Assembly: GCA_026415355.1 (NCBI GenBank)
Contig: JAOAHF010000017.1
Coordinates: 1-39,520, forward strand
Source of the DNA: Brevinematales bacterium
GTDB taxonomy: Bacteria; Spirochaetota; Brevinematia; DTOW01
Direction: 5' to 3'
DNA length: 39,520 nt
Part shown: one piece after another, positions 7,835 through 21,468 of the stretch
Position numbering within the stretch: the first letter of the stretch is position 1
Layout of the letters: the number at the start of each line of letters is the position of its first letter
Made by a program: the position numbers and the translations under genes
The notes under the pieces: model-generated
Seen by the model: the letters and a program-made list of their open reading frames with translations, nothing else
Database searches by the model: none
What the model was told of the DNA's origin: nothing

Positions 7835-8269
7835 ATGAAGTATAACGTACTATTTTTATGCATACAAAACGCTGGTAGAAGTCAGATGGCTGAAGCATTT
7901 GCTAGAGAACTTGGGAATCATATAATAGCTCCTCACAGTGCTGGATCTAACCCCGCTGATGAAATAAACCCAATAGTTAGGCAATGTATGGAAGAAGTAG
8001 GTATTAAAATTCTAAACAAAAAACCAAAAGGTTTTAACGATCTAGATGTGAAAACATTTGATTTCGTCGTAAATATGGGATGTGGGGACACTTGTCCTTA
8101 CTATCCTTCTAAAGAGTATATCAACTGGAACATACCCGACCCCAAAGGTAAGACAATAGAAGAAGTTAGAGAAATAAGAGATATCATAAAATCCAAGATA
8201 ATTGAACTCATAAACTACCTAGAAAACTATGATAAAAGTAAATCATCTTATAAGCCTTCTTTCAAGTAA
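7835..8269 (+). CDS. arsC: Arsenate reductase-like protein (low-molecular-weight phosphatase fold)
   Basis: A 144-residue protein of the LMW tyrosine phosphatase/ArsC superfamily. The phosphate-binding loop is LCIQNAGRSQMAEA with nucleophile Cys9. A second cysteine pair lies in VNMGCGDTCPYYPSKEYINW. The GCGDTCP form resembles the arsenate-mycothiol transferase-like ArsC group of actinobacteria rather than the CSHADNNCP-type thioredoxin-linked enzymes of Bacillus and Staphylococcus. Its usual reductant here is unknown, since mycothiol would not be expected in this organism. A strong ribosome site precedes the ATG. No arsB, acr3 or arsR is next to it, so a role in arsenate reduction is inferred from family only. 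The 3' end overlaps the ABC permease gene by 27 bases on the opposite strand. Confidence 0.85.
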   Translation: MKYNVLFLCIQNAGRSQMAEAFARELGNHIIAPHSAGSNPADEINPIVRQCMEEVGIKILNKKPKGFNDLDVKTFDFVVNMGCGDTCPYYPSKEYINWNIPDPKGKTIEEVREIRDIIKSKIIELINYLENYDKSKSSYKPSFK

Positions 8270-8980
8270 CTTTACACCTAGAATTACTGATATTCCTATA
8301 AACAATATCAGATAAACAACATTCTCTATGTTCACTGCTTGGGTCCTAAAAATAGTTAGGCTATGATACAGTGGTGATATTATAAACGCTACTTTTTCAA
8401 CAAAATTTGGGAAAACAGTTATTGGGAAGAATGTACCAGAAAGAAACATCACTGGACTCAAGTATATGTAGAAGACATAGTCAAAGAAATTCATGGATGG
8501 AGACACTGAAGTAAGAAGCATTCCTAAAGTCCCAAAACAAACTCCCATGACAAAGGCAAGTAACAGCAGCATAGTTATCTCAACTACATCAAGTTGCGTT
8601 AAACCCGATAAGACAACTATTACTAAACTTATCATTGAAGAGATCAAACCTCTTATCGCTCCCCAAGCAACCTCACCTATATAAATATCAATAGTTGTTG
8701 CAGGAGTATGTAAGTAAGAGTAAAACATTTTAGCATAGTACATCTTCGAAAACGAATTGTATGTTGTTTCAAAAAATGAATTATTCATAGCAGGTATAAT
8801 TACAATACTAGGGATTATAAACTCTATGTATCTAACTTGTCCCACCTGTCCTACAATTTTATCAAATCCAATACCAAATGCTAGAATTATAATGATAGTT
8901 TCTATTGAACTAAAAAGTATGCTATACCAATTTTTTCTCCATGCTATAAAGTTTCGCTTCAGTATTGGTACCCACTTCAT
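8243..8980 (-). CDS. ABC-2 type exporter permease (NodJ-like)
   Basis: A membrane permease of 245 residues with about six hydrophobic segments. The N-terminus KRNFIAWRKNWYS is the typical start of NodJ/DrrB-type ABC-2 permeases. It pairs with the ATPase encoded just upstream. The two genes overlap by 59 bases, and the permease ribosome site (GGAGG at about 8988-8992 on the minus strand) lies inside the ATPase coding region, which supports this start and points to coupled translation. The substrate is unknown; relatives export antibiotics, polysaccharide or lipo-oligosaccharide. Confidence 0.9.
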   Translation of the reverse strand: MKWVPILKRNFIAWRKNWYSILFSSIETIIIILAFGIGFDKIVGQVGQVRYIEFIIPSIVIIPAMNNSFFETTYNSFSKMYYAKMFYSYLHTPATTIDIYIGEVAWGAIRGLISSMISLVIVVLSGLTQLDVVEITMLLLLAFVMGVCFGTLGMLLTSVSPSMNFFDYVFYIYLSPVMFLSGTFFPITVFPNFVEKVAFIISPLYHSLTIFRTQAVNIENVVYLILFIGISVILGVKLLERRLIR

Positions 8981-9878
8981 CTTTATCCTCCAACCTTTTA
9001 CCCGTTAAGAATAAAAAAACATCTTCTAATGTAGTTAGTCTAACATGGATCTTTTTTGCACCTCTTGATCTAATCATATGTTTAATATAGTTTGGATCTT
9101 GGTGAAACAATATTAAGTAATTGACAAATTCTATCTTCTTAATACTTTGTAGCTCTTCTGGTAATTGTATCCTGGGAAATATTTCGATAGCGTATGCAGG
9201 CAAATGTCTAGATATGAGTTCTTCTGGACTACCGTTTTCAATTATTATTCCATTATCAATGATATATATTCTATCACACAAAGCCTGTGCTTCGTCTAGG
9301 TAATGAGTAGTTAGTAAAATTGTCTTACCTTTCTCTTTAAGGTGTATTATTTTATCCCATATACTTTTTCTGATTTCTGGATCAAGCCCCACAGTAGGTT
9401 CATCTAGGATTAAGATTTTCGGATCATTTATCAATGACCTTGCTATTATCAATTTTCGTTTCATACCTCCCGACAGATTTTCAACATTCTCATTCATTTT
9501 ATCTAACATCTTGAGTTCGTCTAAGAGTGAAAGAATGATAGGTTTTAACTTTTTTGGCTTAAGTCCGAAGATTTCGCCATATATTAGAAGATTTTCATAA
9601 ACGCTTATATCACTGTCAAGATTATTTTCTTGAGGTACAACTCCCACAAACATCTTAATAAGCTTTAGATCCTCAGGTACACTATACCCCATTACTCTGA
9701 TGTTACCTTCATCAAATTTAACAAGGCCTAGAATAGACTTAACAAGCGTGGTTTTTCCAGCACCATTAGGTCCTAGAAGCCCGACGGTTTCACCTTCATG
9801 TATTTGCATAGCAATTCCTTTAAGAGCTTCAACTCCAAAGTATTTCTTTTTCAAATTGGATATTTCAATTACCTGCAT
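8922..9878 (-). CDS. ABC exporter ATPase (NodI/DrrA-like)
   Basis: The 318-residue nucleotide-binding subunit of the exporter. Walker A is GPNGAGKTT, the signature LSGGMKRKLIIARSL, Walker B ILILDEPTVGLD, and the switch His lies in TTHYLDEA. After the ATPase core a C-terminal tail of about 90 residues contains the 'TTLEDVFLFLTGKRL' end typical of the DrrA/NodI group. The ribosome site AAAGGT is seen before ATG 9878. It is the first gene of a two-gene operon with the ABC-2 permease. The 139 bases upstream (9879-10017) show no gene. Confidence 0.92.
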   Translation of the reverse strand: MQVIEISNLKKKYFGVEALKGIAMQIHEGETVGLLGPNGAGKTTLVKSILGLVKFDEGNIRVMGYSVPEDLKLIKMFVGVVPQENNLDSDISVYENLLIYGEIFGLKPKKLKPIILSLLDELKMLDKMNENVENLSGGMKRKLIIARSLINDPKILILDEPTVGLDPEIRKSIWDKIIHLKEKGKTILLTTHYLDEAQALCDRIYIIDNGIIIENGSPEELISRHLPAYAIEIFPRIQLPEELQSIKKIEFVNYLILFHQDPNYIKHMIRSRGAKKIHVRLTTLEDVFLFLTGKRLEDKDEVGTNTEAKLYSMEKKLV

Positions 9879-10017: not shown

Positions 10018-11250
10018 TTACTTTTCTTCCACAATCTTTATCTCATCCCGGGTTAGTTCGTAGAGTTGATAGACAAGTTCGTCAATCTCCTCTTCATACT
10101 CTGATGTGCCTTTTAAAGGATTTTGAGATTTGAGCTTTGAGATTTGATCAACTAGTTGTTGTAGTTTTATTATTTTATCGTCTTTAGACAAGATTAGTTT
10201 TGATATAGGAATTAGTTCAACATATTGTTTAATCCATCTGTAAGCATTTTTTGACAGAGAATATGCTATATGCTGAATATACCACCAAGAAATTTTTGAG
10301 TTTAGCACGGAAAGTATAACTTTTAGTCTATTGCCTGTCATCATATAAGCAGTTTGATTTACATAGAATTTGTCTTTGTCAAGACAGAATGAGGGTAGCT
10401 CACTCATTTCCTGCCATATAATCTTTTCTTTTTCAAATTCATCATAATAAGTGCAGTATCTTAATTCCCACCAATAATCTCCCTGATCATCTCTGCGTAT
10501 TAGTCCTTTCCCTTTACCTTTATCGCTTTTAGCAAACTGTATGAGATAGTTATAGAGAGATAAATTCAGTCTTAAAGAATTTTTCAGGAGATTGATTACC
10601 TCTGTTCTTATTACTCCAACCAGCAGGAATGACTATCATCCATAATTCATCCCATTTGTAGCAATATTTTCGTATGTTTCGTCCCCTCAAAACTGGTTTA
10701 ATAATTTCTTCAGTAAGTTTTCTCTACTTTTCAGTCTTACAACTATCAAGAATTACATCTCTAGTCTTAGTGTCAATTATAAATGCTTCGTTGTAACCTG
10801 TTAAGATACCACGATATATTTTAACATTCTACTCTTTGAGTGAATTACCTATTTTTTTCTATCTTTTCTTTTAGTTTTAATATTCTATCTTCAGATAAAA
10901 CAAAAACTTCTTTAGAGAGTTGGCTCTGTTTAGTTATTTGTTAGTTCTCCTTTATAAAAATTATTGCTTCTTTAGACTTTTGAGTGTTGACGGTACATTA
11001 GCAAAGTTAATATACGGTTCAGGCCGTAAAGGTTGTTTTTTCAGAAGAACTATACAAGTATCAACTCCTTGCTCAAACACATGGAAGTCTCCGAAATAAA
11101 TTATCCTTAAGATTGTTGTTTTATCTAAAAGAAATTCTCTCAATTTTTCACCGTAATCTACTCTCATCTATTTGTTTGATGAGATAAAGCACAGTATTCC
11201 AGAATCTTTGAGTATGTTGTATCCTTTTTCGTAGAAAAAAACGTAAGGTA
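10018..11250 (-). pseudogene. Remnant of Eco57I-like N6-adenine methylase/restriction enzyme
   Basis: Read on the minus strand with frame changes, this is the C-terminal two thirds of a TaqI/Eco57I-class DNA methylase-restriction protein. Legible pieces are YEKGYNILKDSGILCFISSN, then TAG at 11170-11168 where the family has Trp; MRVDYGEKLREFLLDKT; a frame change near 10967; KEAIIFIKEN and a TAA; a change in an A7 run near 10855; KE, then TAG at 10831-10829, NVKIYRGILTGYNEAFIID; TAG at 10726-10724; and finally an open stretch to the stop at 10018 with KPVLRGRNIRKY, WMIVIPAGW, DDQGDYWWELR and FEKEKIIWQE. At least two of the stops are single changes of TGG to TAG. The catalytic NPPY region and everything before it are gone. 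The last 390 bases remain open but cannot make a working enzyme. Confidence 0.85.
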
Positions 11251-11994
11251 AGCATAAGCTCTCAGAGGGTTTATTTTTCTAATAAATGTTTCTTTTTCAA
11301 ATTCAAAGGTTTTAACAACATCTTCTTGAGAAAGTTCTATAGATGATTCCCAAAGACTATCAAAATACTTCTCTGCTTCTTCAAATCCGTAATCTTTTAT
11401 TTCAACATTAAACTCATTTCGTGACTCAAGTCCTGCCCTAGTTAGATTACTACTACTACCTGTAATGAGTAAATTTGGTGTAATCTTGTTATTCAATTTG
11501 AATAGGTATAAATTCGCGCGATTTGGCTCCTTTGTTTTTCTTATTACGAGTTTGCGCTCCCGAAGAAGTTTAATAAAGAAGTCTATCTGTTCGTATATTT
11601 CCTTTCCATCCAGGTTTCCAGATGTGAAAGTAATTTTTAGAGGTTTTATAAAATCTTTTTCAGCAGAATCAATGTTGAATTCTTTTTCTAACTTTGCGAC
11701 TTTGTAGATACCGTAAGCATTTTTGTCTATATCAAGACTTACTAGTATCTTCAAGTGCTCTTCTTCTAGCTTGCCTTCATTTTAAAGTTTTTCAAGTTCC
11801 TTGTAGATTGCCTGAATACCGGAAAAGTAGAAAAATCCAACTAGAAACTTTAACTCCTTGCTTTCGAATACGAGATCTTTTAATCTTTGCTTTAAGCTTT
11901 TCCGGTTTTCATTTGTTATGAAACTGCTAATACTAACTACTCCGTATTCTAAATGATTAGAAATAAACCTTTTGTAATTGTAGTAGATCACCAA
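11250..11994 (-). pseudogene. Remnant of a helicase with N-terminal phospholipase D domain
   Basis: The opening part (SSFITNENRKSLKQRLKDL, FLVGFFYFSG) and the following segment (ILVSLDIDKNAYG, ITGSSSNLTRAGLESRNEFN) match the PLD-type N-terminal domain found on SNF2-family helicases near restriction-modification genes. The two segments are in one frame and separated by a single TAA at 11784-11782. The expected HxK of the PLD site is NRANLYLF here, so the His and Lys are both lost. After EFEKETFIRKINPLRAYAYL the sequence runs straight into the methylase remnant in another frame, so the whole helicase motor and the start of the methylase gene have been deleted. The junction is near 11250. This is dead DNA, not a gene. 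Confidence 0.75.
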
Positions 11995-12263: not shown

Positions 12264-13010
12264 TTATTTTTTTATAAGGAAGTCAAGGTTAAAATACCTA
12301 CTTGGTATATCTCTCAGTATCATATCTAAGTAATTCATTACGGAATATCTGTTGGTAGATATGGAATCGTAGATTGTTATTTTGCTTATTCTCATACCTC
12401 CTCCCATTTCTTTCACGTCTGAATAGTATGCCTCCTTAAGCTTCCTTCCACTCAAAGAAAAAAACTCCGCTTTAACAGGCCTATAATCCTCCTTTCTAAC
12501 CAAGTAATTAATCCTGTAGTAGGTTACCCCATCTGTCTCCTTCGCAACTAGCTCAAGCAAATAACATTCATCCCCATTTATGTTTACTTCTCCTTTGAAG
12601 TTAGCTCTATAGTCCTCCGATAGGTTTATCTTTGCTATATCTCCGTTCGCTACCTCTCCCATAAGTCTCTGAGCCGGCGTTATCCTGATAGGCTTACTCG
12701 TATTCGGGAATATCATCCACATTTCATTCCCCAACATAAGCATCCTCCTGCCCCTCCAACTAGCCGGACCTGTGAACTCAACCATCACCGAGTTTATATC
12801 CCTAACGTAACTCCTAAGCTCCAACTCCTCCACCTTCTGGTTATCCCTGAAAGATGTTACCTTCATCAGAGCTTCAAAAGAAGAGGCAGGTGCCCTCCAT
12901 AAATCTGCCTTCTTTACTACATCACCAGCATCTACACCAAAAGAATCAGAAACAAAAAAAAGTATAATAACTGAAATAAAAAAGTAATTCCTTCTTATCC
13001 ATATCTCCAT
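12264..13010 (-). CDS. Outer-membrane lipoprotein-sorting family protein (LolA-like fold)
   Basis: A secreted 248-residue protein resembling the PF17131-type 'outer membrane lipoprotein-sorting protein' family, which has a LolA/LolB-like fold. The family core is visible: ASWRGRRMLMLGNEMWMIFP, then KPIRITPAQRLMGEVANGDIAK and the DYRA segment. Residues 1-25 (RRNYFFISVIILFFVSDSFG) are a signal peptide, which is why I start at ATG 13010 and not at the upstream in-frame ATG at 13073. No ribosome site is seen. The gene diverges from an operon encoding an Omp85-like barrel and a LolD/permease pair. In other bacteria this family is often next to RND or MacB/FtsX-type permeases, so a shared role in moving lipid or lipoprotein across the periplasm is likely. 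Confidence 0.8.
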   Translation of the reverse strand: MEIWIRRNYFFISVIILFFVSDSFGVDAGDVVKKADLWRAPASSFEALMKVTSFRDNQKVEELELRSYVRDINSVMVEFTGPASWRGRRMLMLGNEMWMIFPNTSKPIRITPAQRLMGEVANGDIAKINLSEDYRANFKGEVNINGDECYLLELVAKETDGVTYYRINYLVRKEDYRPVKAEFFSLSGRKLKEAYYSDVKEMGGGMRISKITIYDSISTNRYSVMNYLDMILRDIPSRYFNLDFLIKK

Positions 13011-13262
13011 ACTAAAACAGTATGTTAGAACTATTGAAATCATTTCAACAAAACCCATGTTTGTCAAAAGCAAATACCAAGCACCCTTTATACCAAAGAT
13101 TTTTATATAATCATATGCAAGACCTTAAAACAGAAGACTAATCCTAGAAAACATCTACTCAAGTAAGACATCGAAAAGTATGTAGCTAACTACTTATCTT
13201 TAAATCTTCAAATACGGATAATTTAAACTCTGTACTAAAGCAACTATAAGAGGAGGTAGCAC

Positions 13263-14447
13263 ATGGTACACTTAATTATAGTCATCATTTGCTCAATAAT
13301 ACAAAAGAATCTCTTCCCTATAGAGATCAACAAAATCAAGGTACTCGGTAACACTCACACAAAAGAAGAAACCATATTATCCATAGCTTCAGAGTTTAGG
13401 TCTGGAAAAGAATTTCCTGAAGCTGAACTAGAGAATATCGCTAATAGAGTTGAAGAGAGACTTAGAAGGACTACTTGGTTTTATTCATCTAAAGTTTATG
13501 TTGTTGAAAGCAGCAAAGGTAAAGAGTATAGGAATATTGTTATTGAAGTGGACGAGGGATTTCTACTAAGGTTTTCTGGTGGATATGCTTATGGAATGTT
13601 CGGTATAGATAACATCTGGGGTAGTGGTGAGAAACTTCTTTTGTACCTTGGATACAACAAGCAAGGAATTGAATTTGAAGTAGACAACCTACTGGAGAGA
13701 TTTTTTCTAAAGAGCAGAATTGGCAACTTCAATAGCTTTTATTATTCATCACATACAAAAAAGGTAGAGACACAGTTTGTTGGAGCTGAAGTAGATGCAG
13801 GGTACAAATTTAACTGGGACACAAGCTTTAGCATTCTAGGTGGATACGCTCTTGTATTTAGCGACAAATACGAGTTTTTGTTCAATCACTACTACTCAGG
13901 AGTGAGGTTTGAGGTTGACACAAGAGACGATGTATTCTCTGCTAACAAGGGATATTATTTTGCGTTAGCTACCAAAATATTGAGATTTGAAGAACCAACG
14001 TTTGGAGTAGATTTTAGGGCATTTGTATCAATTTTTGATGATTTAAGGATAGGGATAAGAGGTGTTGTTGAAGGAGGTAGAAAACTCTCACAGGAGTATA
14101 GGTTTAACGTAATAGGAATTGATGGTGTAAGAGGAATACCTGTTGAGAGTATGGTAGGTAACTTAAAAACTCTTATGAACCTTGAGCTTAGGAAAAACTT
14201 GGTAGATACCTCAATTTTAGGTTTTCTTAACTTGAAGTTTGAAGGAGTTGGATTTGTAGACGTAGGTAGATGTTTCAATAGCTTAGAAGAAGTAATTAAT
14301 TTACTTGAGTTTGATTATCCTACTGCTTTCGGACTAGGTTTGAGATTATATTTTCTAGAACCAGTTTTCTTACCCATTAGACTTGAGATTGGAGTTGATA
14401 AGAAGATGAATTATAACATACTATTTTCTGTTAGTGAGCCATTTTGA
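13263..14447 (+). CDS. Omp85-like outer-membrane barrel with one POTRA domain
   Basis: A 394-residue predicted outer-membrane protein. After a short hydrophobic start, residues 20-100 (INKIKVLGNTHTKEETILS ... IVIEVDEG) look like a POTRA domain, and the rest is beta-rich. The C-terminal barrel includes RFEVDTRDDVFSANKGYYF, common in the surface-antigen domain, and VIGIDGVRG, which resembles the VRG-F/Y motif of loop 6 in BamA and TpsB proteins. BamA has five POTRA domains, so this is a short accessory member rather than BamA itself. AGGAGG stands just before ATG 13263. First gene of a five-gene operon; the next gene begins 11 bases after its stop. The final residue is Phe, as usual for outer-membrane barrels. 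Confidence 0.82.
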   Translation: MVHLIIVIICSIIQKNLFPIEINKIKVLGNTHTKEETILSIASEFRSGKEFPEAELENIANRVEERLRRTTWFYSSKVYVVESSKGKEYRNIVIEVDEGFLLRFSGGYAYGMFGIDNIWGSGEKLLLYLGYNKQGIEFEVDNLLERFFLKSRIGNFNSFYYSSHTKKVETQFVGAEVDAGYKFNWDTSFSILGGYALVFSDKYEFLFNHYYSGVRFEVDTRDDVFSANKGYYFALATKILRFEEPTFGVDFRAFVSIFDDLRIGIRGVVEGGRKLSQEYRFNVIGIDGVRGIPVESMVGNLKTLMNLELRKNLVDTSILGFLNLKFEGVGFVDVGRCFNSLEEVINLLEFDYPTAFGLGLRLYFLEPVFLPIRLEIGVDKKMNYNILFSVSEPF

Positions 14448-14458
14448 GGAAGGTAAGT

Positions 14459-15799
14459 ATGAAGATACAAAAATCCTACATCACAGTTCTGTTTATTTTT
14501 GTAATCCTCACCAATCTATACGGAGAGGCTGATATAGGCTACTATTCTATTTACTCGTCTCCTTCCGACTCATATCTCAACCCTGCTAACATTCTTAATC
14601 TCAAAGACACTGTAAATCTACAAATCCAAATATTTCTAAGCCTAAAGTTTAGTTTTCTTAATGATGCTATCACCCTCAAGGTATCAGACAGACTTAACAT
14701 CCACCCAAACGGAGGAACAACAAGTGTAACAAATAAGATTAACGAACTGCTACTCTCTTTCTACCCCTATGAGTGGCTAATATTGAGCTTGGGGAAAGAG
14801 GTCGTAAGAAGCGGTGTCGGCTTCTTCAAAAATCCATCAGATTTTCTAATAAATAGAAAAACACTGGGATTTGAGAGCAAAGAGGATGCTGACAAATATC
14901 TAGAGGGTAGAATTATTGCCAGTTCTCATATTATTTCAGACATTTACTCATTCCAACTCGCCTTTTCACCTAGAATATTATGGGATAGTAGCAGTAATAA
15001 GATTCTAGATTACCTATCATCAAACCAGGAGGAATACAAAGTACTTGCTAAGTTTTCAGGAAACTTCTACGGTCTAGACGTTTCCCCTGTTTTCTGTTAT
15101 GATGAGAAGATAAATGGGGGAATGAATTTATCTTATGTCATCGGTGATAATCTTGAGATACACTTTGAGGGGAGTATAGTTGATAGAGATACCAAGAAGA
15201 TTATTGTTGACAGAGATGTTGTAAGTAACGGTATTAAGATAGGGACAACAAACGCTCTTGAGAGTTTTGAGATTAAGTGGATACCAAAAGTCATAATAGG
15301 AGGGCACTACACTTTCAGTGATATAAAATTCAACATTATGTTTGAATACTTCTACAATGGTATCGGCTTAGACGGCAAGGAATGGTTTTCGACGCTTGAC
15401 AAATTTGAGAAAAATTATAACGATATATCTTCTGGTTTTCCGATGCTGGCAAGTTTCTTCCTTGGAATACAAACTAACATTCCAAATCAGCTTCTTCTTT
15501 CTTTGTCTTCACTTAACACTGTAAAAGAGTTTATTGAACACTATGGTATTACAGGTATAGTTAAACATTACGGAATGTTAAGAGCTTACAAAGAATTTGA
15601 TATACCTCTTAGCCTAGAATTTATATTAGTTAAGAACCTTGTTGATTTAAGCGGATATGTCGTAAACAGGTTTTCCTACTCACTAGAGATCGGAAAAATC
15701 GAAGTTGGAATAGGATTTCCGTATGGCGGTAAAAAAAGCGAGTTTGGCTTGAGCTTAGATAGATTCGTTTTATTCTCCTCTTTCAAAATCATCATCTAG
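14459..15799 (+). CDS. Probable outer-membrane or periplasmic beta-rich protein, unknown function
   Basis: A 446-residue protein with a clear signal peptide (ITVLFIFVILTNLYG) followed by alternating polar and hydrophobic strands, as in outer-membrane barrels. I recognise no named family. The start is ATG 14459, placed by the ribosome site GAGGAAGG at about 14446-14453; the frame extends five codons upstream only to a TTG. It begins 11 bases after the Omp85-like gene and ends 10 bases before the next one, inside the same operon. The opening 'GYYSIYSSPSDSYLNPANI' is reminiscent of FadL/PorV-type proteins that begin with 'NPA', but this is a weak resemblance. Confidence 0.75.
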   Translation: MKIQKSYITVLFIFVILTNLYGEADIGYYSIYSSPSDSYLNPANILNLKDTVNLQIQIFLSLKFSFLNDAITLKVSDRLNIHPNGGTTSVTNKINELLLSFYPYEWLILSLGKEVVRSGVGFFKNPSDFLINRKTLGFESKEDADKYLEGRIIASSHIISDIYSFQLAFSPRILWDSSSNKILDYLSSNQEEYKVLAKFSGNFYGLDVSPVFCYDEKINGGMNLSYVIGDNLEIHFEGSIVDRDTKKIIVDRDVVSNGIKIGTTNALESFEIKWIPKVIIGGHYTFSDIKFNIMFEYFYNGIGLDGKEWFSTLDKFEKNYNDISSGFPMLASFFLGIQTNIPNQLLLSLSSLNTVKEFIEHYGITGIVKHYGMLRAYKEFDIPLSLEFILVKNLVDLSGYVVNRFSYSLEIGKIEVGIGFPYGGKKSEFGLSLDRFVLFSSFKIII

Positions 15800-15809
15800 G
15801 AGGCATATT

Positions 15810-16514
15810 ATGAGAATTTTTCCTACATCGTTGATACTTTTTTTGTTATTCTCAACTTCCTTCGGCATCAGTAGAAATGAGATTATGTCTATTAGCAGCT
15901 ATTTCAACTCAAATACTCAGGCAGTTTTAGATACAATCAAGAAAACTGATACTTCAAATGAGTTTGGAAAAACAAAAAAAGCAATACTTCTATCTGTGAT
16001 TGGAGTTAGAACAAATGATGGAAAGTCATACTACGAAGCAATTAGTCTACTCGAGGAAATACTTAAGAACAACAGAAATCCTATTCTGATTGCTTACCTA
16101 GGTATGAACTATGCACTAGTTGCTAGGTATGATCTAAACCCTTCTATCAAAACACTTTTTGGAAATAGAGCCATAAGCACTTTCAAAGAAGCAGTCAATA
16201 TGGATAGCAAAGATTGGTATATTAGGTATCTTAGGGGTAATGTGTTATTTGAGTTTCCAGAGTTTTTCAAAGTTGGTAATGTTGTGAAAGAAGACTTCCT
16301 ATACCTTGAGAGACTTATAGCAAATGGTGAGTTAAACGATCCTTCGGTTTTGGTGAGTATCTACTTTTTCATCGGTGAGATGTACAAACTCGACAGAAAA
16401 ATAAGCAAATCAATAGAGTATTGGAAAAAGTCCGTTGAAATAGGAGATGCTTACAAAATAAGAAGTGATGAATATACAAAATCTAAAAAGAGACTTGAGA
16501 TATTTCTAGATTAG
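15810..16514 (+). CDS. Secreted helical (TPR-like) protein
   Basis: A 234-residue protein with a signal peptide (FPTSLILFLLFSTSFG) and then mostly helical sequence. Segments such as AISLLEEILKNNRNPILIAY, AISTFKEAVNMDSKDWYIRY and SIEYWKKSVEIGDAYK have the spacing of tetratricopeptide repeats. Such repeats usually hold partner proteins together. The ribosome site AGGAGG precedes ATG 15810. It sits between a probable barrel gene and the ABC ATPase gene in one operon with gaps of 10 and 9 bases, so it may be a periplasmic adaptor of that machine. No catalytic motif is seen. Confidence 0.75.
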   Translation: MRIFPTSLILFLLFSTSFGISRNEIMSISSYFNSNTQAVLDTIKKTDTSNEFGKTKKAILLSVIGVRTNDGKSYYEAISLLEEILKNNRNPILIAYLGMNYALVARYDLNPSIKTLFGNRAISTFKEAVNMDSKDWYIRYLRGNVLFEFPEFFKVGNVVKEDFLYLERLIANGELNDPSVLVSIYFFIGEMYKLDRKISKSIEYWKKSVEIGDAYKIRSDEYTKSKKRLEIFLD

Positions 16515-16523
16515 GAGGAGGCT

Positions 16524-17192
16524 ATGGGAGCAATCGTAAGATGTGAGAATATTAGTAAGACTTACAAAATCGGAAAGGTTGAAGTTAAGGCACTACGAGG
16601 AATCAGTCTTGAGATCGAGGAGGGAGACGTAGTATGTATAATGGGACCTAGCGGCTCTGGTAAAACAACCTTGCTCAACCTAATTGGCTGTATAGATACT
16701 CCAACAGATGGAAAAGTCTTTATCGATGGAAGAGATACTGCAACTATGGCTGACAACCAACTATCAGAATTTAGAAACAAAACAATAGGTTTCGTATTTC
16801 AGAATTTTAACCTTATACCTGTACTTGATGTGTATGAAAATATAGAGTATCCCCTTATCCTTGGAGGACAAAAAATAGATAGGGACTGGATATATTACCT
16901 GATAGACAGAGTTGGTCTAAAAGATTTTATTAAGCATAAGCCAGATGAACTTTCCGGAGGACAAAAGCAGAGAGTTGCAATAGCTAGAGCACTGGCAACC
17001 AAACCAAAACTTGTGATCGCTGATGAACCAACAGCTAACCTGGATACTAAAACTGGTGAAGCAATTGTAGATTTGCTACTTGAGTTTAACAAAGAGAGGG
17101 GAACTACTTTTATCTTTTCTACTCACTCAGAACTACTTGCCAAGCACTCAAAAAGGATTATCAACTTGCTTGACGGTAGGATTGTAAATTAG
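16524..17192 (+). CDS. lolD: ABC transporter ATPase, LolD/MacB type
   Basis: A 222-residue ATPase of the LolD/FtsE/MacB group, which drives extraction or mechanotransmission rather than classical transport. Walker A is GPSGSGKTT (41-49), the Q-loop FVFQNFNLIP, the signature LSGGQKQRVAIARAL, Walker B LVIADEPTANLD and the switch His in FSTHSE. The start Met is preceded by AGGAGG. The next gene, 10 bases downstream, encodes its FtsX-type permease. Together with the nearby lipoprotein-sorting-like gene the likely job is moving lipoproteins or lipids to the outer membrane, but MacB-like efflux is possible. Confidence 0.92.
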   Translation: MGAIVRCENISKTYKIGKVEVKALRGISLEIEEGDVVCIMGPSGSGKTTLLNLIGCIDTPTDGKVFIDGRDTATMADNQLSEFRNKTIGFVFQNFNLIPVLDVYENIEYPLILGGQKIDRDWIYYLIDRVGLKDFIKHKPDELSGGQKQRVAIARALATKPKLVIADEPTANLDTKTGEAIVDLLLEFNKERGTTFIFSTHSELLAKHSKRIINLLDGRIVN

Positions 17193-17202
17193 GAGGTTAC
17201 GT

Positions 17203-18426
17203 ATGTTTATGTTTTTGAAGGTTGCTTTGAGGAATGTGTTTAGGAGTAAAGTTAGATCCATTCTGACTGTCCTATCAATAGTCGTTGGCGTTGTTTCGCT
17301 TATGATACTGAATGGCTACTTTGAGTATTCAAAGTGGGGACTCAGAGAATCTATGATAAGAGGTGGGATAGGTCATTTCCAGATATACCAGAAGGGCTTT
17401 ACAGAAGTTGCTGAGGAAGGAAGCTATGAGAAACTGATAGAGAATTACAAAAAACCGCTTAGAGAACTGTATGAAATAGGTGGGATATCTTCCGTTGCGC
17501 CAAGATTGAGGTTTCAAGGAATATTATCAAGTGGAGATGTTAGTACAATCACGATAGGATTTGGCGGATGGAGTGAGGAAGAGTTAAAACTTAACTCTTT
17601 TGGAAATCTCGTCGAGGGTAGCTTTATATCCGATGATGACAAGAGTGGCGTTATAATAGCCTCCGGGCTCGCAAGAAAACTCAGAGCAAAGGTTGGTGAT
17701 TACCTAACCCTTATGACTACAACTAAGGGAGGTGGAATAAATGCTATTGACGTTAGAGTGAAAGGTATAATGACATTAAGGATAGAGGAGTATAATAACA
17801 CTTTTATGATAGTTCCATTAGCGCTGGTACAGGAGGTTGCGAATGTTGGTGAGTCTGTCGATAGGCTTGTTGTAGTTCTTCAGAATACAGATGACACAGA
17901 GAAAGTAGAAAAAGAAGTTAAAAAGTTTTGTGACACTAGAGACTTTGAGTATAGAAGTTGGAAGGACCTTGCAGTGTTTTACTGGCAGGTTAGGGATATG
18001 TATCAATCTATTATTGGTATAGTGCTAACAGTAGTACTTTTTATCGTTATATTCGCTATTTCAAATACAATAACTATGAATGTATATGACAGATTTAGAG
18101 AGATTGGAACGATTAGAGCAATAGGAGCAAGAAGGATCGTTGTTGTAAAGCAATTTGTCTTAGAGAGTACCGTAATGGGAGGCATAGGGGTAATAGCTGG
18201 GCTAATTCTAGGAGGTGTTTTGGCATTGCTTATAAACGCAAGTGGCGGAATATATATACCACCTCCACCCGGTAATACAGAAGGCTACTACGCATTCATA
18301 ACCCCCAATCCAATTGATATTCTTGTATATTGTGTTTTATTTGTGATTGCATCAATACTCGCTTCTCTAATACCCTCCTACAGAGCTTCAAGGATGAATA
18401 TAGTTGATACATTGAGAAGTTTATAA
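17203..18426 (+). CDS. FtsX/MacB-type ABC permease (LolE-like)
   Basis: A 407-residue inner-membrane protein with the LolC/LolE/MacB layout: a first membrane segment at about 20-37 (SILTVLSIVVGVVSLMIL), a large periplasmic domain (MacB_PCD-like, about 40-260), and three C-terminal membrane segments. The FtsX signature is seen as FAISNTITMNVYDRFREIGT followed by IRAIGARR, and the end SYRASRMNIVDTLRSL matches the family's 'PAxRAAxLDPxEALR' terminus. AGGAGG precedes ATG 17203. It is the last gene of the envelope operon and pairs with the LolD-like ATPase. Confidence 0.9.
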   Translation: MFMFLKVALRNVFRSKVRSILTVLSIVVGVVSLMILNGYFEYSKWGLRESMIRGGIGHFQIYQKGFTEVAEEGSYEKLIENYKKPLRELYEIGGISSVAPRLRFQGILSSGDVSTITIGFGGWSEEELKLNSFGNLVEGSFISDDDKSGVIIASGLARKLRAKVGDYLTLMTTTKGGGINAIDVRVKGIMTLRIEEYNNTFMIVPLALVQEVANVGESVDRLVVVLQNTDDTEKVEKEVKKFCDTRDFEYRSWKDLAVFYWQVRDMYQSIIGIVLTVVLFIVIFAISNTITMNVYDRFREIGTIRAIGARRIVVVKQFVLESTVMGGIGVIAGLILGGVLALLINASGGIYIPPPPGNTEGYYAFITPNPIDILVYCVLFVIASILASLIPSYRASRMNIVDTLRSL

Positions 18427-18623: not shown

Positions 18624-19286
18624 CTAAAATGAAATTTCTTTGAGTTCTACGTACAAACTTATATTTCCAAAAGGAAACAAATAAAACACAGGTACACTTG
18701 CCCTACTAAAAATGTTCAAGCTATTTATGTTAGTAAATTCTACATAAGCACCTTTTATTTCTTTTATCAAAAACCTACCACCAACTTGATTCGAAAGAGT
18801 AATAAATCTAGTATTAGTTACTTCTAAAAAATTTACACTAAACTCGCTGGGCAGGGATCTTAAATCCATAGCTTTGTAAATCTCTGTGGCTAAATCGTTT
18901 ATACTGTCATTTGTATTATGTATGTAAATCTTACCAAAGAGTAAACTATCAATTAGTATATCCTGTCTATCTCTATAAAATACCGTAATGTTAGTGTCTC
19001 TGAGAGAATTTCCAACGCTAATAACCTCTCTCTTTAAAGTCCTCAATGTATTAGGCTCTATATATGAAACAACATTGTCATCGACATTGACGAATAATCT
19101 AACTCCTGAATATGTTTTAATTTTTGAACTTACTACCACATTAGTTTGAGTATTCCTAATACGAACTGTAGCTTCACCTGCTTTTACACCCAAAACAGAA
19201 AATTCATACTTCAAAAATTTAACTTGTCCATCTACACTACCCAAGAAAAACAAAACAAAAAACAAAACTACAAACAGCTGTTTCAT
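18624..19286 (-). CDS. Secreted DUF3108-like protein
   Basis: A 220-residue protein with a signal peptide (LFVVLFFVLFFLGSVDG). After it, FLKYEFSVLGVKAGEATVRI matches the opening of DUF3108 (the 'Y-x-V-x-W-x-G-I-x-A-G' segment), a family of periplasmic beta-sheet proteins related in fold to LolA-like proteins. The continuing alternation of strands supports this. Its role is unknown; members are thought to act in the envelope. There is no Shine-Dalgarno sequence before ATG 19286. It is transcribed towards the envelope operon and ends 198 bases from it. The 277 bases upstream (19287-19563) contain only the promoter of the GH13 gene. Confidence 0.7.
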   Translation of the reverse strand: MKQLFVVLFFVLFFLGSVDGQVKFLKYEFSVLGVKAGEATVRIRNTQTNVVVSSKIKTYSGVRLFVNVDDNVVSYIEPNTLRTLKREVISVGNSLRDTNITVFYRDRQDILIDSLLFGKIYIHNTNDSINDLATEIYKAMDLRSLPSEFSVNFLEVTNTRFITLSNQVGGRFLIKEIKGAYVEFTNINSLNIFSRASVPVFYLFPFGNISLYVELKEISF

Positions 19287-19563: not shown

Positions 19564-21468
19564 ATGAGATTAATAATAGCTCTATTATTGGTTATAACTA
19601 CATTATTTCAATATGCTTGTAACAACAGTAGTACCTATGACACTGGTAAGGTAAATAATGCTCAATCAACACAAACTAGACCATTTCCTGAAGAACTCGG
19701 CACTGTTATATCAAACGATGGTAAAGTGTATTTTTACCTTTTTGCACCCTCTGCCAGTTCTGTAAGTCTATCTGGAAGTTTCAACGGATGGAGTCAATCA
19801 GGAAATCCTATGACAAAAATAGTCACATCCAACGGAGCAGTTTGGACGACTGCTTTACCCCTATCAGTAGTATATAATCAAAGCTACAAGTATATTATAA
19901 ATAGAACCACCTGGGTAGCAGATCCTTACTCAAAGCATGTTGAAAAAGATACAGGGGACGGGTTTAACTCTGTATTGAAAACAAACAATGTTATAAATTG
20001 GCATCCTTTCACACCACCTACTGTTGATAAACTTGTTATATATGAATTACATGTTGAAAGTTTTACAGCCAATGATCCATCAGTTCTACCATCAAGAAGA
20101 GGTAAGTTTCTAGGAATACTAGATAAAACAAACTACTTACTATCTCTAGGTATAAACGCTATAGAGATAATGCCTATACATGCGCAAGAATCGTATTCTG
20201 GATATAGTTGGGGATACAACCCTGTACTTTTCATGGCAATACATCCAGATTATGGCACTCCTGACGATTTCAAAATCATGGTAAATGAACTACACAAAGT
20301 GGGTATAGCAGTAATAGTCGACGTAGTTTTTAACCACGCTGGCAATAAAAACAACTATCTATGGGATATAGATAATAAATACTACTTTGACTTTGACGGA
20401 GATGGAAGAGTCGAAGCATCACCAGGCGGAGATGATTCAACACCTTGGGGAAACAAGTTTGCTCTTTGGAAACCAGTAGCTTCAAAACTGGTATATGATA
20501 CCCTTGAGTATTATATAAAGGAATTTAATGTTGATGGATTCAGATTTGACGGTACCTATGTTATGTCAGGGGGAAACCCGTTTAGAAATGCTCGTCCACA
20601 TCTAATAAACAACATAATAAATCCTCTAAGAGCAAAATATCCTAATAAAATATGGATCGTCGAACAATTACCAAATAATACCGACTTCAAAGGTACAGGA
20701 ATAGCACAGTGGGGCGAAGTATTCCACGACAAAATGAAAGCAATGCTAAGAAGAGACAATTTTGAAGGAGAGCAATATGACAACATTGACAGAGTAGGGA
20801 GAATGATCTACTATGATAAAGATAGTGGCCGTTTCACATCACCTCTAGAAGTAGTGAACTACTTTGAGTCACATGATGAAAATTCCGTATATACTGAGCT
20901 AGTTACCTACAGCGGGCTAACGGTTACGGATGCCACAAACGCCTCAAAAGTCGGTGCCATTGTTCTTTTCACCTCCATGGGTATACCGATGATCATGGCG
21001 GGGCAAGAGTTCGTAAGACCCAGAATAGGGCAGAACACACATAAGACTAATGGAGATATTGACTGGAGCTGGTTAACTACAAATACCAACATTTTCGAAT
21101 ACTATAGAGGATTGATAAAATTAAGAAAACAACATCCTGCACTTAGAATCACAGATCCAAATCCTGCTTCAAAAGGATGGTTTAAATGGGGTAATGAGTG
21201 GAATAACGAAAACTTCTCTTGGGGTACCAGTAAACATATAGTTTACGCTTTAAACTATAATGGCACAATGCCAGGAGAAACAAATAAATTCGTGGTAGCA
21301 GTAAACTTTAGTACAAATCCAGTAACAATATACCCATTTTTCGAGACGGGGACTTGGACAATAGTAGTTGATCCAAATACTAGTAGCGGGAGTAATACAG
21401 TTAACATAACATCAAATACAACGTCTTGGGTAATACCACCTATAACCGGGTTCATATTTAGAAAATAA
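19564..21468 (+). CDS. GH13 alpha-glucan enzyme with N-terminal CBM48, surface lipoprotein
   Basis: A 634-residue glycoside hydrolase family 13 enzyme acting on starch- or glycogen-type glucans. The N-terminus (LIIALLLVITTLFQYAC) is a signal peptide ending at Cys19; the lipobox QYAC is loose, as in spirochaetes, so lipid attachment is probable. Residues 45-125 form a CBM48-like domain (VSLSGSFNGWSQ). The barrel shows DVVFNH (253-258), GFRFDG with nucleophile Asp329, the acid Glu367 in WIVEQLP and ESHDE with Asp438, so all three catalytic acids are present. A short C-terminal beta domain ends the protein. The order resembles branching-enzyme/GlgX/trehalohydrolase relatives; the exact reaction cannot be fixed. 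It is transcribed alone. Confidence 0.9.
   Translation: MRLIIALLLVITTLFQYACNNSSTYDTGKVNNAQSTQTRPFPEELGTVISNDGKVYFYLFAPSASSVSLSGSFNGWSQSGNPMTKIVTSNGAVWTTALPLSVVYNQSYKYIINRTTWVADPYSKHVEKDTGDGFNSVLKTNNVINWHPFTPPTVDKLVIYELHVESFTANDPSVLPSRRGKFLGILDKTNYLLSLGINAIEIMPIHAQESYSGYSWGYNPVLFMAIHPDYGTPDDFKIMVNELHKVGIAVIVDVVFNHAGNKNNYLWDIDNKYYFDFDGDGRVEASPGGDDSTPWGNKFALWKPVASKLVYDTLEYYIKEFNVDGFRFDGTYVMSGGNPFRNARPHLINNIINPLRAKYPNKIWIVEQLPNNTDFKGTGIAQWGEVFHDKMKAMLRRDNFEGEQYDNIDRVGRMIYYDKDSGRFTSPLEVVNYFESHDENSVYTELVTYSGLTVTDATNASKVGAIVLFTSMGIPMIMAGQEFVRPRIGQNTHKTNGDIDWSWLTTNTNIFEYYRGLIKLRKQHPALRITDPNPASKGWFKWGNEWNNENFSWGTSKHIVYALNYNGTMPGETNKFVVAVNFSTNPVTIYPFFETGTWTIVVDPNTSSGSNTVNITSNTTSWVIPPITGFIFRK

Follow-up and report, generated by a model that had tools for sequence, protein, structure and literature searches.

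The six neighbouring genes located between positions 12264 and 18426 of the window (the entire 39.5-kb contig; the genome, that of a spirochaete, amounts to 1.76 Mb in 80 contigs) very probably form one machine that moves a greasy cargo across the envelope, from inner membrane to outer membrane. In our judgement the chance is slightly better than even that they constitute one trans-envelope exporter for acylated or amphipathic cargo, serving a specialised product and not bulk lipoproteins. The identities of the genes, the fold of the barrel C and, weakly, that of the barrel B, the conservation of the gene set and the families of the neighbouring genes were all obtained with computational tools. 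The features of the locus are:

12264..13073, minus strand: A, LolA-fold carrier of the periplasm (PF17131), transcribed divergently from the operon, start at 13010 or 13073
13074..13262, no strand: A/B divergent intergenic region, probable shared control region
13263..14447, plus strand: B, Omp85-superfamily barrel with a single POTRA, heading the operon behind a strong Shine-Dalgarno sequence (GAGGAGG)
14459..15799, plus strand: C, AlgE-like outer-membrane barrel (18 strands and two long helices in the AlphaFold2 model)
15810..16514, plus strand: D, TPR-like helical protein, secreted, probably an adaptor in the periplasm (signal-like N-terminus, weak TPR)
16524..17192, plus strand: E, LolD-like ABC ATPase (ABC_tran; NCBIfam TIGR02211)
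17203..18426, plus strand: F, FtsX/LolE-type permease (MacB_PCD and FtsX; PDB profile matches)

All six open reading frames are present as listed, that of C spanning 14444-15799, and the envelope cluster described in the initial annotation was confirmed in each of its parts: POTRA domain, LolA fold, LolD-like ATPase, FtsX/LolE-type permease, TPR-like protein and two barrels. The frame of C opens at a TTG (14444); the ATG at 14459, placed behind AGGAAGG, is the more likely start. The start of A is uncertain between ATG 13010 and TTG 13073. Since A is divergent from the other five genes, the window contains one five-gene operon and one divergent gene. A consensus scan of the A/B intergenic region gave promoter-like sites that were not in excess over shuffled sequences, and terminators likewise did not exceed shuffles. 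The DUF3108 gene (18624-19286) was left out of the cluster, its relatives not being found beside the cassette in other loci.

The carrier A matched the Pfam family PF17131 (LolA_like) with 148.8 bits, the cut-off being 30, and its family profile recognised the solved LolA-superfamily protein 3buu (E=1.4e-71). PF17131 is its sole LolA-family match in Pfam; PF03548 was not matched. Gene D encodes a protein with a signal-like stretch at the N-terminus and a TPR match that is weak in the window and clearer in an orthologue. The ATPase E contains ABC_tran (126.8 bits, Pfam) and has as its best NCBIfam match LolD (TIGR02211), at 239.8 bits, which is below the curated cut-off of 307.75. The permease F combines MacB_PCD (74.2 bits) and FtsX (69.7 bits) domains in Pfam; its best NCBIfam match, LolCE (TIGR02212), reached 119.7 bits where the curated cut-off is 362.45, and its best PDB profile matches were LolE (7arh, 2.7e-33) and LolF (9w35, 2.4e-32). 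As F is encoded by a single gene, the permease is presumably a homodimer. The MacB_PCD domain could recall a MacB-type drug or peptide efflux pump. We consider this very improbable, given that the ATPase gene is separate from the permease and not fused to it, that no MacA or TolC homologue and no adaptor family is encoded among the six genes, and that the best structural relatives of F are LolE and LolF.

Protein B has 394 residues and one POTRA domain (PF07244, 30.6 bits, cut-off 21.3). For the Omp85 barrel family PF01103 the window protein fell below the cut-off, while members of its family at loci L133 and L196 were above it. A VRG motif ahead of the last five strands is an expected feature of the Omp85 superfamily, and it is visible in the sequence of B. 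All PDB fold matches listed for a low-confidence model of B (pLDDT 47) were TamA, BamA or SAM proteins. A joint profile of B and other small Omp85 proteins matched the genome's own BamA at 94.9% (E 4e-8); with only its two closest relatives included the figure was 47.5%. B is not itself a BamA: against TIGR03303 it scored 27.5 bits (cut-off 297.15), and the genome contains a true BamA with 414.5 bits. It resembles BamA, TamA and SAM50 in its POTRA, probable barrel, VRG-type motif and fold matches, and differs from them in its single POTRA, its length and its being encoded together with an ABC exporter. No relatives of B were found in plasmids by tblastn.

The second barrel, C, was modelled with AlphaFold2 from 32 relatives as an 18-strand barrel with two long helices (pLDDT 87.8, pTM 0.85), and the best fold match in the PDB was the alginate exporter AlgE (E 6e-11, TM about 0.52). 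The likeness is one of barrel fold, with a TM of about 0.5; a sequence relation to AlgE was not detected, the cluster contains no polysaccharide genes and the two long helices belong to C. Membership in a known porin family was also considered and was rejected, since C matched no Pfam family and no PDB protein at the sequence level.

When genome contigs were scanned with the permease profile, 80 loci were recovered, from Spirochaetota, Bacillota, Bacteroidota, Acidobacteriota, Nitrospinota, Pseudomonadota and others; 95 loci were studied, a few contigs being counted twice. Profiles matched A in 80 of these 95, C in 79, E in 72 and D in 46, and C directly follows A in 66 of the 80 C matches. 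These counts, together with the order of A and C, define D-E-F-A-C as the core, which is found in dozens of loci from many phyla. Of 393 Spirochaetota genomes, 141 have a C-type barrel and 18 were found with the B profile. C is the constant outer-membrane part, present in nearly every relative, and the Omp85 protein is a recurrent addition present in few. The proposal of the initial annotation, a lipoprotein or lipid exporter with an outer-membrane exit of its own, stands in so far as the genes make up a single machine for envelope export that brings its own outer-membrane components, but the constant exit is the AlgE-like barrel and not the Omp85 protein.

The complete set recurs in other arrangements. 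In Ch60, another Brevinematales genome, the six genes are in one operon in the order B-A-D-E-F-C, and in a Bacillota MAG (L133) the order is B-D-E-F-A-C; these two were the loci in the permease scan where B accompanied the core. Elsewhere we found B-D-D-E-F-A-C-F (L199 and L195), B-D-E-F-F-A-C (L194) and, without D, B-A-F-F-E-C (L196). Among the 18 genomes found with the B profile, G268, G299, G305 and G056 have B in front of the same genes (G056 without D), and in fact B heads its gene set in all loci of the six-gene type that carry it. In G001, of the same genus as the window's genome, B and F each lie at the end of a contig, as would be seen if the cluster were split, while G003, also of that genus, has neither B nor C. 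The absence of B from most relatives and from G003 indicates that it is not obligatory for the core. Mapped on the tree of A, the B partner calls for six changes, of which well-supported branches force no fewer than three; in this setting B has thus been repeatedly acquired or lost.

The occurrence of the six-gene set in distant genomes, and in rearranged order, is more than chance would produce and indicates that the genes belong together. The expected conservation in relatives was thus borne out in Ch60, L133 and three or four other spirochaete genomes; the genes are not scattered, as they should be if the cluster were fortuitous, and the gene set is conserved in several lineages. That unrelated envelope genes lie together here by accident might be argued from the divergent orientation of A and from G003. 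We nevertheless rejected this scarcely credible reading on conserved synteny, since the six genes are found reordered in a Brevinematales genome, in the Bacillota MAG and in other spirochaete families.

The genome has separate genes of these kinds. Besides the BamA, a PF03548 LolA gene is placed on another contig, and another permease is far closer to LolC/E (273.3 bits for TIGR02212 vs 119.7 for F). Two further PF17131 genes are also present, each followed by a barrel of the C family (98.3% and 89% profile probability). The separate BamA, LolA and LolC/E-type permease make the window cluster a second, dedicated route. It had been suggested that a complete separate Lol/Bam set could explain the six genes as unrelated neighbours; such genes do exist, but the conserved synteny excludes that explanation.

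If B is an insertase, it could be a private BamA that assembles C and is no partner of the cargo, C alone being the exit. B does have a POTRA and belongs to the Omp85 superfamily, whose members insert barrels, and in no module found with B does it take the place of C. We regard this division of labour as fairly unlikely, however, as most C barrels do without B and the genome has a normal BamA. Moreover, in three Brevinematales genomes (L036:5826-8865, L037:6555-9510, L041:6999-9808) a small single-POTRA Omp85 protein, related to B with a 99.7% profile match, directly follows an ABC-2 ATPase/permease pair, and neither a LolA-like gene nor a C barrel was detected in the surroundings. Other contexts of such proteins were also observed. 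At L197:6297-10629 a B-type Omp85 protein adjoins a 1049-residue AcrB-family RND pump, and at L198:6220-9123, L200:5197-8127 and L038:7962-10835 a larger B-like Omp85 protein recurs next to genes for a TPR-like protein and for a membrane protein of the DsbD_2 type.

The initial annotation remarked that canonical Lol systems encode no Omp85 barrel together with LolD. An Omp85 barrel encoded with a LolD-like pair is no longer without precedent, as Nixon et al. 2026 described the Borrelia BBJ23-29 genes with the same roles (PMC13078400) and BBJ25-28 provide the precedent. Both clusters combine TPR-type protein, an Omp85-superfamily barrel, a LolD-like ATPase, an FtsX/LolE-type homodimer permease and a LolA-like protein. 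Homology links BBJ28 to A (99.3%, E 1e-20) and, probably, BBJ23/24 to D (80.7%). The barrels are another matter: with five Borrelia sequences, hhalign gave 5.3% for BBJ25 against B and 2% for BBJ29 against C, so that no relation is detectable in sequence, although BBJ29 follows the LolA-like gene as C does. BBJ25, as described in that paper, has no POTRA, whereas B has one. Judged from the sequences, the window holds the same kind of system as BBJ23-29, in which, however, the Omp85 barrel carries a POTRA and an AlgE-like barrel is present in addition. Homologues of BBJ25 were reported absent from Brevinematales and the full cluster was reported only in Borrelia (PMC13078400); the window cluster, being in Brevinematales, extends the type to a lineage said to be without it. 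Our literature search found the Borrelia paper, and no account of the wider five-gene cassette was found in the literature covered.

Genes adjoining the core in other genomes point to the cargo. Among 96 operonic neighbour genes scanned, carrier proteins were found 7 times and FeeM N-acyl amino acid synthases 5 times (raw counts), accompanied by ketosynthases (KS), FabA, reductases (SDR), a halogenase family and acyltransferases. Counted by locus, also raw, an ACP is beside 6, a FeeM-like gene is in about 10 and YcaO and/or SagB are in 4. In E. coli, where the core cassette is present in 2 of 5426 complete genomes, it was found on an IncK2/Z plasmid (L091, NZ_CP060058) within a carrier-protein/ketosynthase/FeeM cluster. 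In two Brevinematales loci (L086:1019-12150, L088:1423-12646) an ABC-2 pair, a C-type barrel, a related LolD/TPR/permease/LolA set, and YcaO and SagB-like genes stand in succession, with a weak ThiF-like match near the YcaO/SagB-like genes of L086, suggesting a modified-peptide cluster plus its exporter. In Borrelia valaisiana lp28-8 (L205:7462-11774) and Borrelia sp. RT5S (L206:5740-10723) the LolA-like cluster is followed by annotated SagB and SagC, with YcaO in RT5S; the 2026 paper makes no mention of these SagB/SagC genes (PMC13078400). Twelve module loci (L131, L138, L126, L115 and others) contain a gene of the ThiF family, often together with a FeeM-like gene.

LolA-like proteins with special cargo are not without precedent. 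One serves, together with the RND protein ApeM, an aryl polyene lipid product (PMC8253772), and others occur in flexirubin loci (PMC11885536). The ApeL/ApeM/ApeN system is alike in having a dedicated LolA-like carrier beside genes for an outer-membrane lipid product, and differs in using an RND pump and a LolB-like receptor where the window has an ABC transporter and barrels (PMC8253772). The biosynthetic neighbours and these precedents favour a specialised amphipathic product over general lipoproteins, and we hold with moderate confidence that the cargo would be such a product: lipids, acylated amino acids or modified peptides. The lipoproteins proposed in the initial annotation accordingly lose ground to these as the cargo to which neighbours elsewhere point. 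The window itself contains no biosynthetic cluster, so here the cargo is not indicated by the neighbours.

A second Lol system seems to us unlikely; it would be a dedicated exporter taking certain lipoproteins to the outer membrane or the surface, where B and C would let them through to the outer leaflet. Lipoprotein export is one option in the Borrelia paper (PMC13078400). The best matches of E and F are LolD and LolCE/LolF, A belongs to the LolA superfamily, many surface lipoproteins are displayed by spirochaetes, and the downstream amylase-like gene (19564-21468) has a lipobox-like LFQYAC start. On the other hand, E and F are far short of the curated cut-offs, the genome already has a LolA of PF03548 and another permease that fits LolC/E better, the relatives are located in small-molecule gene clusters, and the amylase gene is not kept next to the cluster in Ch60. 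Compared with canonical Lol (LolCDE, LolA and LolB, or the LolF variant), the window shares the ATPase, the LolE/LolF-type permease and the LolA-fold carrier, but that carrier is of PF17131 and not PF03548, and two barrels and a TPR-like protein are encoded with it.

For the exporter of a specialised amphipathic product, which we prefer, each transport step, the exit route and the role of B are inferred, as is the cargo. A homodimeric LolF/LolE-type ABC transporter (E2F2) would take the cargo, likely an unusual lipid, an N-acyl amino acid or a modified peptide, from the outer leaflet of the inner membrane and pass it to the carrier A, which the TPR-like D may guide or dock. The AlgE-like barrel C would receive or pass the cargo at the outer membrane, and the Omp85 protein B, as a recurrent accessory, may either open the membrane laterally for cargo insertion or assemble C.

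More broadly, we tentatively propose, with somewhat less than even confidence, a widespread and apparently undescribed class of exporters in which a LolF-type ABC transporter, a PF17131 carrier, a TPR-like adaptor and an AlgE-like barrel deliver the products of biosynthetic clusters to or through the outer membrane, and for which a single-POTRA Omp85 protein was recruited more than once as membrane-opening partner. The set reported in Borrelia would then be part of a much more widespread machine, often adjoining genes for lipid-like products or modified peptides. If this is true, amphipathic products have a general way across the Gram-negative envelope that is driven by an ABC transporter, BBJ23-29 can be placed in a larger family with a predicted cargo class, PF17131 proteins annotated as 'outer membrane lipoprotein-sorting protein' often serve other cargo, and B offers a natural case of an Omp85 protein working with an ABC exporter.

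Some further genes were observed around the cluster. An ABC-2 ATPase/permease pair (8243-9878) is placed 2.4 kb from it, and its ATPase is 41% identical to the ATPases beside the small Omp85 proteins of L036, L037 and L041. Between the two transporters (10018-11754) there are short ORFs, in which a TaqI-type specificity domain and, weakly, a PLD-like domain were recognised; they look like remnants of restriction or mobile genes. The amylase-like gene, the next downstream of the cluster, encodes CBM48 and alpha-amylase domains and its product is possibly a surface lipoprotein. Elsewhere in the window's genome (L015:7417-10338) a 973-residue protein has a TolB-like propeller match and, at its C-terminus, resembles Omp85.
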